Below are positions 7 to 10,376 of a DNA stretch of 64,000 bases, piece by piece. This stretch comes from Vulcanisaeta distributa JCM 11217 (GTDB lineage Archaea > Thermoproteota > Thermoprotei > Thermoproteales > Thermocladiaceae), in NCBI RefSeq assembly GCF_001316005.1, contig NZ_BBBJ01000001.1, positions 1-64,000 of the forward strand, written 5' to 3'. The translations under genes were made by a program, and so were the position numbers. The notes beneath the pieces are model-generated. The model had not been told where the DNA came from. It made no database searches and was given only the letters and a program-made list of their open reading frames with translations. Each line of letters begins with the position of its first letter. The first letter of the stretch is position 1.

Positions 7-629
7 TCACGGGTGTTTAACCTCGGTGGTTAATAAGGCAATGCCAATCATCAACCAGGCAATTAGTAGCAGTACTAGCCCAATTATTATCGGCGTCAGT
101 ACGGCACCCACTATATAGAGTGAACCGCCAATTCTGACGTAATCACTACCCGTATATGTATAGGTCCTCCTGGCAATACGGTACATGAACACCGACGAAG
201 CAATTAGTGGTATAGACGCGAAGATGCCCACGGCCATTATCAACTCCATAAACTGTAGAAACTCAGTGAACGGAGTATACACAAACCCAGACACACCATT
301 ACGCCCATAATACACACCAGGCACGCCAATGGCGTGGGTTATAATCATAACAAGCATGGAGAAGGTGGGGGTTATGAATGAGGAAGAGCAGGAAAAAGCT
401 AAATTATGAATACGGCGAATGCCACAACGGTTAATATGAACCAGATAATCGCATTATTCCTTAATGAATTATCATGAAGATTATTGGCGACCTCAATAAT
501 TCCCACCAGGAATATAACCATACCAACAACACCCAACACGCCATAGCCAAGAAAACCAACACAAGCAAGTATCGCACCAACTCCTGCCATAACCCTGGCA
601 CTACCCAAGTCCATGACCATTAATGACAC
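7..629 (-). CDS. DUF996-like membrane protein, interrupted
   Basis: Multi-pass membrane protein of unknown function. The first part (629 down to 399) opens with LGSARVMAGVGAILACVG and two hydrophobic segments, the usual start of the archaeal DUF996 family. The second part (357 down to 7) has two more membrane segments at about its residues 36-58 and 80-108 with a basic loop (MYRIARRTYTYTG). Together they reach the roughly 200 residues expected, so I read one gene. The frame is lost between 360 and 415, where a run of five G (plus strand 367-371) lies; at least one more shift there is unresolved. It could instead be two small proteins. Confidence 0.5.
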
Positions 630-945
630 AGCGAGCCATTATTTAAGCAATGCATTAATCATATATTTGATAAGGCTAAAATACATGAAATGCTAAGTAA
701 TTAAAATATGGCAATAATAGCTATGCCTAATTGAGATTGCGCGTAGTCCTATCTATATGTAATTGAAATAAAGCCCTGTGTGAGTAGGTGCGGGCGCGCG
801 CATTGGGCTATGGCATAAATACTATATGTATAATTATTGATTAATTAAATAGATTATTTATTGATTAACTAATCGAGAGCCTGAACTGTAATTTCCACGG
901 GATATATAGACCGCAGCCAGATAGAGCGGTTTAGTCGCTCTTAGC
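630..945. other. AT-rich intergenic region without a gene
   Basis: No credible coding frame on either strand. It is AT-rich apart from a short alternating GC stretch near 790-801. It separates the divergent-looking block around the DUF996-like gene from the PaREP1 gene. I see no RNA gene in it. Confidence 0.5.
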
Positions 946-1466
946 TTACTTACACTGTGCTAGGTCTATGAATTCCTCCTTAACTAGTTCCCGGTATATG
1001 GTTGCCATGTCACTTAGAAATTTACAGATGAATTCCTTAGCATCATCATCGCTTCTAAATACGCTGAATATACCCTCCCTATCAGGCCCATTATACTGAT
1101 ACCTATGTAATTCAAGGGACGCCAGGGTTAGGTATGGCATCAAGGGATTGAGGGCGCTGAGTATCTTTGATACTTCAAACATCCTAATCGTTGGCATGAA
1201 GGCAGCAACATACAGTGCCTCATTAATCCTTTCCCTCAATCCCCCCTAACCTTAACCCTACGCCTATACACCTTGCTCAATTCATTAATTTCGCCTGCAG
1301 ATATTGCCGCGAGAAATGATTTCCATGCCTGAAATGCCTTACCGGCGGCGTTTCTGACCAATCCCTCTCTAAGCATGCTAATCGCTATCTCAGCCTCGTA
1401 CTTAGTCTCAAGAAGTCTCGTCCTCCTATAACCATCAACGTCAAACCAGGGCTTTGGAAGCTCCAT
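946..1466 (-). CDS. PaREP1 family protein, interrupted
   Basis: PaREP1 proteins are an expanded Thermoproteales family of unknown function. The N-terminal part (1466-1236) begins MELPKPWFDVDGYRRTR and holds the family signature GLVRNAAGKAFQAWKSFL. The C-terminal part (1239-946) has the second signature, ELHRYQYNGPDREG. The two parts are out of frame at a run of six C (1241-1246). Seven or four would give a continuous protein reading RVRG(G)LRERINEAL. First of three PaREP1 copies here (others at 20163 and 58553). Confidence 0.8.
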
Positions 1467-7024: not shown

Positions 7025-7393
7025 TCATGAAAGCCTAATCACAGGATCAGCATTGCGAAACCCCACAACCCTAACCACAAGGCGCGTATTAGCCAGTGGA
7101 CCCAATAAATAACGGCAGTCCTTGAAGGGACAAACACTGGACTTATGCCTCCTCAATTTATCATCACCATAACTCTCAGTCCTAATAAGCAATAAATCCC
7201 CCCCATCACGCGTATAAATAACCCTATACGGGTAATGAATAAAGACACCACTCACTGAATCCCTAATCACCAACTCCACGTAGTCAGCCATGGATAAATC
7301 AACAAATAACGAAGTATTACTACCCTTAACCTCATCCACGCGGTGCTCCCTAATCACCAGGTTACAATTATTGGCTCCCCTGACCAACCGCAT
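7025..7393 (-). CDS. hypothetical protein
   Basis: 122-residue protein rich in beta-strand patterns (DYVELVIRDSVSGVFIHYPY, NTRLVVRVVGFRN) with two Cys (VCPFKDC). It overlaps the end of the upstream gene by 26 bases, so the two are co-transcribed. No family recognised. Probably part of the accessory block that also contains the ATPase and the TnpB-like gene. Confidence 0.5.
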   Translation of the reverse strand: MRLVRGANNCNLVIREHRVDEVKGSNTSLFVDLSMADYVELVIRDSVSGVFIHYPYRVIYTRDGGDLLLIRTESYGDDKLRRHKSSVCPFKDCRYLLGPLANTRLVVRVVGFRNADPVIRLS

Positions 7394-8087
7394 GATTACT
7401 CACCAGGGAGACCCTAAATGATTCCCAACCCCCCCTCAACAACTCATTGAATTCTGCGATCAAATTCCTAAGTCTAGCCCTTCGATAAGCCCTCAACTCA
7501 TACCTCAAATCCTCACTTAGGTAATTTATCCTAGCCCTTATCGAATTAATTATCGAATCCACAATACGCAGAGCATCATTAACGTTCACATATATTGGGT
7601 AAACACGAATGAAGGCATTGCCATACCTCGAAAAGACCTCCCTCCACCTATCCACGTTAAAGCACACCTCACGACCAATCCACGCATGGCCATACTTCGC
7701 AAAGCACCTCCTAACCTCCCTATGAAACTTCACGGATATACCCACGTCATTAGGAACCCTAAACTCAAGGATATACAACACAACACTACCACCATTACCA
7801 GGAGACACCCTACTAATTAATTGGTTAAATAAGGCGGGCAAGAATCTGGCGCCGTCACCACCAATATTAACGTCCACGATGTACGGCCTAGAATTAACGA
7901 AGTAACCCTTAACAACGGCATAATCACCACCCATCACCTGAGCTCTAACAACATTACCACCCTCGATAACCCTGACACCTTTGACATCATAAATCGCGAT
8001 AAACGGCTTGTAAGAACTAAGATAGGGCAGGACAAACTCTACATACTGACCACTCCCCCCCGAACCAACGAGCCCCCCCAACTCCAT
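7368..8087 (-). CDS. hypothetical protein of the accessory block
   Basis: The frame is open to 8258, but I place the start at the ATG at 8087 (MELGGLVGSGG). A TATA box lies about 28 bases upstream, and the longer N-terminus is Cys/Phe-rich and unlike a protein. The product has 239 residues: a Gly-rich start, a beta-rich middle (KPFIAIYDVKGVRVIEGGNVV) and a helical, Arg-rich end (YLSEDLRYELRAYRRARLRNL). Not recognised. It may be a nuclease-like or DNA-binding partner of the divergent ATPase; that is inference from position only. Confidence 0.55.
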   Translation of the reverse strand: MELGGLVGSGGSGQYVEFVLPYLSSYKPFIAIYDVKGVRVIEGGNVVRAQVMGGDYAVVKGYFVNSRPYIVDVNIGGDGARFLPALFNQLISRVSPGNGGSVVLYILEFRVPNDVGISVKFHREVRRCFAKYGHAWIGREVCFNVDRWREVFSRYGNAFIRVYPIYVNVNDALRIVDSIINSIRARINYLSEDLRYELRAYRRARLRNLIAEFNELLRGGWESFRVSLVSNHAVGQGSQ

Positions 8088-8106: not shown

Positions 8107-8120
8107 AATAATTTAAGCAT
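8107..8120 (-). promoter_or_regulatory. TATA box for the 8087 gene
   Basis: Minus-strand reading tgcttaaattattc, centred about 28 bases before the ATG at 8087. This is why I prefer that start. A pair of 9-bp direct repeats lies immediately upstream. Confidence 0.5.
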
Positions 8121-8126
8121 AACAAA

Positions 8127-8157
8127 CCGTGCGCACACACGCAAAATACCGTGCGCA
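8127..8157. repeat. 9-bp direct repeat pair upstream of a TATA box
   Basis: ccgtgcgca occurs at 8127-8135 and again at 8149-8157, a period of 22 bp, or two helical turns. Position just upstream of the TATA box suggests a dimeric regulator binding site. No second pair was seen elsewhere in the window. Confidence 0.45.
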
Positions 8158-8335
8158 GAAAATGCACTAAAAAAGGCGCAATAACAATCCATAAGGGGGG
8201 GAGAACCATGATAAGAGCACCAAACACGGTGCATTGAGAAATTAACGAGAACCACCACTTAAAGAGGTTTTAGGCATAATTAATAACGGTGATTGAGCAT
8301 GTAGCCCTAACATGGCTTAACCGATGCATGAACCG

Positions 8336-8378
8336 CGAGGGAAATCCCCCCCAGGGTTAAGCCCTGGGGAAACCCTCG
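8336..8378. repeat. long hairpin in the divergent intergenic region
   Basis: cgaggg at 8336-8341 pairs with ccctcg at 8373-8378, and cccagggtt pairs with aagccctggg inside, giving a strong stem-loop. It abuts a copy of the sequence found at the 3' end of the TnpB-like gene (8388-8420, inverted). Probably the end of a transposon-related element or a structured RNA. Confidence 0.45.
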
Positions 8379-8387
8379 TAGGCGATT

Positions 8388-8420
8388 TAGGCGGTGAGCG
8401 ACCCCCCCTGAAGTCGGGAG
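8388..8420 (-). mobile_element. orphan copy of the TnpB-associated right-end motif
   Basis: Read on the minus strand, cccgacttca, a G run, then tcgctcaccgcct. It closely matches the end of the TnpB-like gene at 10338-10371 (cccgagaacttc, a G run, tcggctcaccgcct). In IS605-type elements this region forms the 3' scaffold of the guide RNA. No tnpB is attached to this copy. Confidence 0.45.
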
Positions 8421-8476
8421 TTGAGTATCGATAAGAAACTAATGAAAATATTACTCGATCTAGGCGATAAGCATTA

Positions 8477-9288
8477 ATGGTGATTGGCCCGCCAAGCTCT
8501 GGAAAAACCACGATAATCACTACATTGGGTTTAATGAGGCGTAAGCTCATGGGTTCATCAATAACCTACATGACTCATAAATTATCTGATGCCATTGGGG
8601 CTATGGCGAAGCCGCAAATACCCTGGAAATGCGTACGTGACAACCTATTCCTAATACTTGACTCATATGAGGAGCTAAGCACGAGACCTGGAATCTCGCT
8701 GTTAGTATCCACAGCATACAGGTTTAGAACCTATAGCAATTACGTTAGGTACCTTAGGTACCTCGCTAGAAACCCACGTAACGCCCACGCACTATGGCTT
8801 TTAGAACGAATAGCACTGCTACGCGACATCGTAACCGATCAAGACACTAACAATGAAGTTAGTAAGGTAACCACAATACTAAGTAGTAGGGATATTAAGG
8901 GGGGGACATACTTAGCAACTGCTCTAATAATCAACAGCATGTGCCAACAAGGAACAAATAACCTATTAATATTAGACGACATAACAATATTACCCATAAG
9001 AGAGGACGTACTACTAAGGGTTACTAGAATGGCGAGAGGCTTTACGAACATTTGGATGGCAATGCACAGCATAGGTAAGCTGAACCTTGAAGACCTAAAC
9101 ACACCAACGATAATAACAAGCCACAGCGGCCCCCCGCTAAATTATTATCGAGATTAAAAGACGTATTAAGCCGAATAAAACCAGGCGAAGCGCTTTACAT
9201 GGGCGTTAACGAAGAACTGAAAATAAAAATAAACGAAACAAGAGAACTACGCAATAAACTACTTAACGAAAGCAATAACGGCACATAA
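8477..9288 (+). CDS. P-loop ATPase, interrupted near the C-terminus
   Basis: Walker A is GPPSSGKTT at the N-terminus and Walker B is NNLLILDDITIL. A following RGFTNIWMAMHS suggests the sensor region of HerA/VirB4-like or viral packaging ATPases. C6 at 9130-9135 breaks the frame; seven or four continues it as SGP(P)AKLLSRLKDVLSRIKPGEALYMG to a stop at 9288. An upstream extension from TTG near 8427 (KLMKILLDLGDKH) would need one added T before 8477. Substrate unknown; probably DNA. Confidence 0.65.
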
Positions 9289-9593
9289 CCGTCACATCCA
9301 CGGCAGGCGAACCCGTTAAAATCCCCCCCCTTCCTCTTTTCAATCCCCCCCCTATGCAGGGGGGAGGAGGAAGGGAGGATGATGGGCACGAGAAACCGAG
9401 CCGTTGGTTCGGTCCTCGGACGCCCTGAGTTCATAATGATGAATCCCCATAAAATGATTAATGATTAAATCGGAGAAGCTGATTAAGCCCATCACCTGGG
9501 TACCCGCGGGGGGGCGGGCCGCCCCGCCATCGAACTTAAACGAGGGGGGGCGGTGACTGTGGAAATCCACAGTCCCGCCCCGTGGGTATCTAG
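9289..9593. other. structured GC-rich region before the TnpB-like gene
   Basis: No coding frame. It contains two C8 runs (near 9332 and 9347), the hairpin gactgtgg-aaat-ccacagtc at 9555-9574 and the long inverted repeat annotated below. It resembles a transposon left end or a structured RNA leader rather than ordinary spacer. Confidence 0.45.
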
Positions 9594-9601
9594 GTGATGG
9601 G
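9488..9601. repeat. imperfect inverted repeat enclosing a hairpin
   Basis: The left arm (9488-9508) reads cccatcacctgggtacccgc. The right arm (about 9581-9601), read in reverse, is cccatcacctagatacccac, about 17 of 20 matching. Between them is a nested perfect stem at 9555-9574. The right arm overlaps the start of the TnpB-like gene. Confidence 0.5.
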
Positions 9602-10376
9602 TATGGGTAGGGATGGGGGGGGAAATAAGGATGGGCATGTGCCTGCCGTGGATGTGACGGTTGTCGGTGTTGATGTTGGTGCTAGGCGTTCTGTTGTGGC
9701 TTTTGTTGGTGTATGGGCTAAGTTGCTTAATGATTTAGCTGTGGTGTATGCTAGGCAAAATGGTGTTTCGTTAGTGCCGTTGGGTATTTATGATGCCATG
9801 ACTAGGGCATACGTGGTTGAGGTTAATTATCCCGGAGTTGATAGATATAGAGGCAATGAACTAACAAGCAGCATAATTAGTAAGGCATTGGGTGCCGTGG
9901 TTAGGGCTGTCCATAGTGTTCAAAGGGTTCATAATGCGTTGGTTGGCTTGGCGTTTGAGGACCTTAGGTTGTTTAATGAGCGTAAGCGTGACTTGGCTAA
10001 GGCTAGGGTGGTTTGGGAATTGATTGTTAATAGGTTTGGTGAGGTTGTGAGTAAATGCCCTGCCGTTAAAACCTCCTGGTTCTGGATAAGCTATAGGGGG
10101 GGTGAGGTGGTAGTACCAGTTAGGGATTTCATACCTATAGTGCTTGTTGAGCCTGAGTACACAAGTAGTATGTGCCCACGATGCGGCGCCTATTTAGGTA
10201 GGGCTAGGGGGGGTAAAGTGACGTGTAGTTACTGTGGTTTTGAGGGCGATAGGGATGTTATTGGTGCTATGAATGTGGCGTTACGTGGTTTCTTAATACT
10301 CGTGAAGTGCGTTAGGGAGGGCGTGATTGGGGTGGCCCGAGAACTTCGGGGGTCGGCTCACCGCCTCTTTAGTTGA
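9594..10376 (+). CDS. miniature TnpB-like RuvC/zinc-ribbon protein
   Basis: RuvC-fold nuclease related to IS605 OrfB/TnpB. RuvC-I Asp is in VVGVDVGARRSVVAFV, RuvC-II Glu in VGLAFEDLR, the zinc ribbon is CPRCG...CSYCG, and RuvC-III Asp is in GDRDVIGAMNVA. All three acidic residues are present. At 260 residues it lacks the roughly 150-200 residues (REC/WED) that precede RuvC-I in ordinary TnpB. Nothing coding stands before it, so it is either truncated or a naturally small branch. Its 3' end (ARELRGSAHRLFS) overlaps the guide-RNA-like motif. No TnpA is present. Confidence 0.75.
   Translation: MMGMGRDGGGNKDGHVPAVDVTVVGVDVGARRSVVAFVGVWAKLLNDLAVVYARQNGVSLVPLGIYDAMTRAYVVEVNYPGVDRYRGNELTSSIISKALGAVVRAVHSVQRVHNALVGLAFEDLRLFNERKRDLAKARVVWELIVNRFGEVVSKCPAVKTSWFWISYRGGEVVVPVRDFIPIVLVEPEYTSSMCPRCGAYLGRARGGKVTCSYCGFEGDRDVIGAMNVALRGFLILVKCVREGVIGVARELRGSAHRLFS
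10318..10376 (+). ncRNA. possible guide-RNA scaffold overlapping the TnpB-like 3' end
   Basis: The stretch gtggcccgagaacttcgggg forms a short stem (cccgaga/cttcggg) and is followed by tcggctcaccgcct. It recurs in inverted orientation at 8388-8420. In TnpB systems the guide RNA is processed from exactly this position, with the guide just beyond the end. Transcription is not shown by the sequence. Confidence 0.35.

Follow-up and report, generated by a model that had tools for sequence, protein, structure and literature searches.

We analyzed a stretch of 64,000 nucleotides (the window) of the archaeon Vulcanisaeta distributa JCM 11217, taken from a genome that is 67% complete, and within it a locus where a P-loop ATPase gene is followed by a gene for a RuvC/TnpB-like protein. 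In our reading, the messenger RNA (mRNA) of this operon starts with a leader that carries a hairpin of a multicopy RNA family, and behind the hairpin a strand would pair over a long distance with the end of the RuvC gene (helix P1). The transcript would also contain a central domain formed by two other pairings, P2 and P3, so that the whole would follow the plan of the archaeal precursor of 16S ribosomal RNA (pre-16S rRNA). We estimate the probability of this reading at about 60%. At the level of sequence, the hairpin, its family, the co-variation of P1, P2 and P3 and the presence of the same layout at a 16S gene are established. The features on which the argument turns are these:

8256 to 8264, plus strand: TATA-like box of the ATPase-RuvC operon, with the sequence CACTTAAAG, found at a similar place in 6/7 species; the hairpin follows about 70 nucleotides later.
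8287 to 8420, plus strand: putative 5' leader RNA of the operon, from CGGTGA to the ATPase start, about 26 nucleotides after the TATA-like box, with conserved blocks in the alignment of seven species.
8326 to 8390, plus strand: hairpin of the leader, which belongs to a structured RNA family with many copies (57, spread over 16 genomes, by model R3) and shows covariation.
8336 to 8378, plus strand: the two-stem hairpin within it, in which the C7 at 8346 to 8352 is probably C4.
8389 to 8418, plus strand: 5' strand of P1, pairing with the 3' end of the TnpB-like gene; its terminal TCGGG abuts the ATPase start codon.
8421 to 9288, plus strand: P-loop ATPase gene with a TTG start, frame-broken in the window near 8472 and 9133.
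9648 to 10376, plus strand: RuvC/TnpB-like protein gene, holding only the RuvC motifs D-E-D and the TNB zinc domain, with no WED/REC (from PF07282 and homologues).
10336 to 10366, plus strand: 3' strand of P1 at the end of the RuvC gene, made of CCCGA, a 3-nucleotide bulge and a variable strand.

The evidence for P1 comes from the comparison of seven Vulcanisaeta loci, of which several come from draft assemblies. On the minus strand, positions 8389 to 8418 read CCCGA..CTTC(A)GGGG.TCG.CTCACCGCCT, which matches positions 10336 to 10366. The bare 10-mer, with one mismatch allowed, occurs 6 times in the window against an expectation of 2.6 +/- 1.5, and this match alone is not significant. With the relatives included, the longer match between leader and gene end is far beyond chance. 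The sequence of P1 differs greatly between species, yet both strands change in step. The own-genome pairing was the row maximum in 7/7 genomes (with one tie), and the true pairing was the unique best of the 5,040 assignments over the seven species. It was also stronger than every background window (254 to 1,268 per locus) in all five of the clean loci tested. An unbiased all-against-all scan for stems along the 3.5-kilobase (kb) locus found only P1, P2 and P3 to be present in 7/7 species. When the gene-end 22-mer was searched in the complete genome G008, the leader was its one and only partner (at 3 mismatches or fewer).

Folding energies of P1 range from -33 to -60 kcal/mol, and RNAduplex energies calculated over whole regions, with no local trimming, were uninformative. 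There is a recurrent bulge of 3 nucleotides (GAA in three species), located on one strand only. The RuvC stop codon of G010 precedes the 3' strand, hence protein coding does not explain the conservation of this strand. At the other side, the ATPase starts near 8421 (TTG) and not at 8477, the window missing one base near 8472 that is present in its relatives. As a consequence, the 5' segment of P1 ends right at the ATPase start codon. We counted the departures from Watson-Crick pairing as they appear on the plus strand. The G.U to A.C ratios were 12:5 for P1, 46:24 for P2 and 27:12 for P3 (85:41 in total), and the excess of G.U indicates that plus-strand RNA is the likely functional form.

The hairpin has the layout CGAGGG-AAAT-CCCC[CCC]AGGG-TTAAG-CCCTGGGG-AAA-CCCTCG. 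In the alignment of the seven species it covaries (92.4% of the pair cells are paired and 5 pairs have two-sided changes; neither value was reached in 500 shuffles), and the TATA-like box and the CGGTGA block are conserved together with it. From this arrangement we infer that positions 8287 to 8420 are the 5' leader of the ATPase-RuvC mRNA, with transcription probably starting from the TATA-like box at 8256. The runs of G or C need caution. The window contains 127 of exactly 7 nucleotides, versus 19 of length 6 and 23 of length 5, and these runs of 7 are an assembly artefact. G008 has C4 where the window shows C7 at 8346 to 8352, so that the true run is probably C4 and the hairpin tighter than it appears. 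The frame-broken genes of the window include those of the ATPase, KorB and ornithine cyclodeaminase; long G/C runs are likewise found in G003. A pseudoknot between the leader loop and upstream sequence, seen in G000 and G008, failed in the other species when these were inspected by eye. The AUGA/GUGA of the leader family may correspond to a kink turn.

An earlier note on this DNA had already pointed to the hairpin, to the inverted likeness between the segment behind it and the end of the TnpB-like gene, and to their position in the divergent promoter region of the ATPase and the gene at 8087. All of this was borne out. It had also proposed a search for further copies of ctcaccgcct with the same upstream stem, and the hairpin does recur in the genome.

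We have followed this family in other genomes. A covariance model built from the leader only found weaker full-length copies elsewhere. With these extra copies we built a second model (R3), whose alignment had two-sided changes in 9 of 16 pairs. At E<=1e-3 it found copies in 16 of the 61 genomes, 57 in total. The leader of the window genome scored an E value of 1.8e-15 with R3. However, the R3 alignment also held the orthologues of the window, and therefore independent evidence is limited to the extra copies that came from the leader-only model. Many copies of the family lie directly behind TATA boxes, and some, in G005 as well as in a second genus of the taxonomic family, are located right before the 16S rRNA gene. 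The copies upstream of 16S were L148 (G005:C13:48561 onward), L155, L129 and L141, from Vulcanisaeta and a sister genus. No Rfam family corresponds to the leader or its copies.

The second part of the fold lies between both reading frames, again on the plus strand:

9287 to 9308, plus strand: 5' strand of P2, at the ATPase stop.
9433 to 9483, plus strand: C/D-box-like small RNA segment within the central structured RNA (sR5-like, 28 bits, below the Rfam cut-off of 40).
9488 to 9601, plus strand: P3 stem-loop domain, with arms at 9488 to 9518 and 9574 to 9601.
9641 to 9662, plus strand: 3' strand of P2, covering the likely RuvC start codon (GTG at 9648).

P2 thus bridges the stretch between the stop of the ATPase frame and the start of RuvC, with P3 and the C/D-box-like segment inside it; positions 9287 to 9662 have the appearance of a large structured RNA in which P2 and P3 co-vary. 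The enclosed segment shares C/D-like boxes with box C/D small RNAs (Rfam sR5). It differs from them in its score, in lying inside a larger stem and in guides that, by eye, are not conserved.

The closest known parallel is the leader-trailer stem of archaeal pre-16S rRNA. In the 16S operon of G005, the hairpin of this family comes first, and the strand after it pairs with the 16S trailer (-57 kcal/mol). The two cases have in common the family of the hairpin, a strand behind it whose partner lies about 2 kb away at the other end of the transcript, and a stem of similar stability. Co-varying long-range pairing between leader and transcript end is the mark of an rRNA-type closing stem, and P1 displays it. 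The body differs, being here two protein genes plus structured RNA instead of rRNA. For archaeal rRNA leader-trailer stems, the typical cutting sites of the splicing endonuclease are bulge-helix-bulge motifs (PMC8339473). No clear motif of this kind was seen in P1, whose processing is a proposal.

By analogy with rRNA, the likeliest mechanism would be an RNA closing or processing stem that also covers the ATPase start. The ends of the transcript would pair in cis through P1, closing the RNA into a loop, and P2 and P3 would fold a large structured domain between the reading frames. The whole operon transcript would thus be folded around the ATPase and RuvC frames. P1 might protect the ends or, as in 16S, serve endonucleolytic processing. 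By hiding the ATPase start codon it could also make the translation of ATPase and RuvC dependent on the fold. A more ambitious version, which we regard as unlikely, would have the TnpB-derived RuvC protein, stripped of the half that binds the guide, the ATPase and the products of two neighbouring genes (p259 and p120, described below) form a ribonucleoprotein on this self-folding transcript of about 2 kb. In that version P1 would close the particle, P2, P3 and the C/D-like segment would be its core, and maturation would be rRNA-like.

Several observations weigh against the proposed leader and closing stem. The hairpin also precedes protein-coding operons. G003 and G011 retain the RuvC gene without leader or ATPase. 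The G.U excess of P1 taken alone is weak and not significant (p = 0.07), the P1 pairing of G002 has two A.C mismatches, and inspection by eye did not find a clear bulge-helix-bulge motif in P1. Besides, the comparison includes only seven loci; for 4 of them the genome is a draft that contains frame errors, and in the window itself the G/C runs are inflated.

The genomic context is important for judging the alternatives. The gene order in the seven species is KorB-ThpR-p120-p259-[leader]-ATPase-RuvC-CbiZ, always at one chromosomal site. The flanks are constant, with KorB, ThpR, p120 and p259 on one side and CbiZ plus an ornithine-cyclodeaminase-like gene on the other. The ATPase and the TnpB-like gene co-occur in 7 of the 12 genomes of the genus. 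Vulcanisaeta sp. JCM 14467, a relative with the same locus, was the only match in a scan of genome contigs. The operon is domesticated (TnpB-derived) and chromosomally fixed rather than mobile. The RuvC protein has the D-E-D residues and the zinc domain (PF07282; motifs GVDVG, AFEDL and DRDVIGA in the sequences). In TnpB, the N-terminal WED/REC part binds the guide RNA and the target-adjacent motif. The conserved protein begins at the first RuvC strand, and thus it is a TnpB-like protein without WED/REC; only its C-terminal zinc part aligns to solved TnpB/Cas12f structures.

Two readings based on DNA are less likely than the transcript fold. The first is RNA-guided autoregulation. RNA of the gene end (or of the leader), bound by RuvC, would use a variable part of 15 to 22 nucleotides to recognise the other site as DNA and control the divergent promoter. 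TldR proteins, which are TnpB-like nuclease-dead repressors (PMC13418256), provide the model; in both cases a domesticated TnpB relative is linked to a promoter region through base pairing. In its favour, the variable part is as long as a guide (16 to 24 nucleotides) and closes a gene derived from TnpB at the 3' side; G008 offers it a single genomic partner, the leader of its own operon, and the protein keeps the RuvC D-E-D residues. This very retention sets it apart from TldR, in which the nuclease is inactivated. Two other differences are that no guide scaffold was found here and that the partner belongs to the leader of the operon itself. Against this reading, WED/REC is missing from the N-terminal side of the protein, an omega-RNA model matches neither site, a conserved AT-rich flank was not seen, and P2 and P3 pair in the same way where no guide could act. 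Autoregulation of this type is, in our estimation, improbable.

In the second, ATPase and RuvC would once have formed a mobile unit, with P1 as its terminal inverted repeat, which gene conversion keeps alike or which a recombinase uses. P1 does flank exactly these two genes and the RuvC protein is derived from a transposon. But site and neighbours are the same in all species, the complete genome G008 holds no second copy and no viral copy was found. Departures from pairing favour G.U over A.C, and the leader side runs unbroken into the RNA hairpin family. Such an origin for the conserved pairing seems quite doubtful.

The earlier note had proposed a minus-strand solo omega or guide RNA acting in trans, or the scar of an insertion sequence right end. 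The local likeness to the gene end and the adjoining hairpin speak for it. With the omega-RNA of IS200/IS605 elements the locus shares a partner strand formed by the 3' end of a gene derived from TnpB, and CCCGA resembles (by eye) the ACCCGA core of canonical archaeal omega-RNAs. However, in all seven species it is the plus strand on which hairpin and pairing are conserved, the locus stays in place, and the second strand would be the leader of an mRNA. The family of the hairpin is a different one, with members in rRNA leaders as well. An archaeal omega-RNA model (R1) found canonical ends in L073 and L072 (E 5e-8 and 1e-7) and matched neither the leader nor the RuvC end, and the protein has no WED/REC. 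Signs of the mobility of an IS200/IS605 right end are missing: neighbours are constant, there is one RuvC gene in G000 and the gene end has one partner site in G008. We consider both forms of this proposal largely refuted and very improbable. Chance resemblance of two GC-rich stretches, suggested by the insignificance of the 10-mer alone, is refuted by the cross-species tests (the 5,040 assignments, the 7/7 stem scan and the background windows) and has a negligible probability.

Two genes of the minus strand complete the locus:

7028 to 7393, minus strand: p120, gene adjoining p259, of no named family.
7371 to 8087, minus strand: p259, divergent gene, of no named family and probably leaderless.

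With PADLOC, PHROGs and NCBIfam only the RuvC protein received a name. Fold models of p259 and the ATPase were too weak (mean predicted local distance difference test scores of 58 and 52), and a fold search with the weak p259 model as query gave no match at E<=0.001. A relative of the ATPase was not found in viral contigs. In G003 and G011 p259 has disappeared alongside the ATPase and the leader, and in G011 two long hairpins that look perfect (L079:9500-9760) separate what is left of the ATPase from a diverged RuvC gene, where ATPase and p259 are deleted. Another family of the order (L010, G040) has a distant relative of the ATPase (37% over 115 amino acids) with a divergent upstream gene, a possible cousin of the ATPase-RuvC locus. 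The divergent promoter at 8120 to 8250 contains repeated, partly conserved motifs like CCGTGCGCA / GGTGCATTG, which are possible operator sites.

Other observations concern related elements elsewhere. A copy of the hairpin at G000:C1:204022-204086 (L113; orthologues L114, L115, L134 and L137), apparently stand-alone beside a radical-SAM-like gene, is conserved across species and could represent a small RNA in its own right. In L146, L147, L148, L149, L150 and L112 the hairpin repeatedly precedes a gene family with the motif MVNxWNESVRLAxxLLRRLRD.. and small open reading frames. These clusters resemble mobile elements and have no Pfam match; a PaRep2-like naming for the neighbours of the extra hairpin copies was unsupported by Pfam. 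A candidate for a true solo right end lies at L072:6426-6488 (G008), where a canonical TnpB omega-RNA end has no recognised tnpB beside it.

The locus brings together three things that we have not seen combined in the literature searched: a multicopy family of leader RNAs that rRNA and protein operons share in hyperthermophilic archaea, a closing stem of the rRNA type on a transcript that codes for proteins, and a fragment of a domesticated TnpB with a gene end conserved as RNA and not as protein. The locus is a clear and testable case for the role of a tamed TnpB without its guide-binding half. If our reading is true, rRNA-type maturation or leader control would extend beyond rRNA in these archaea.
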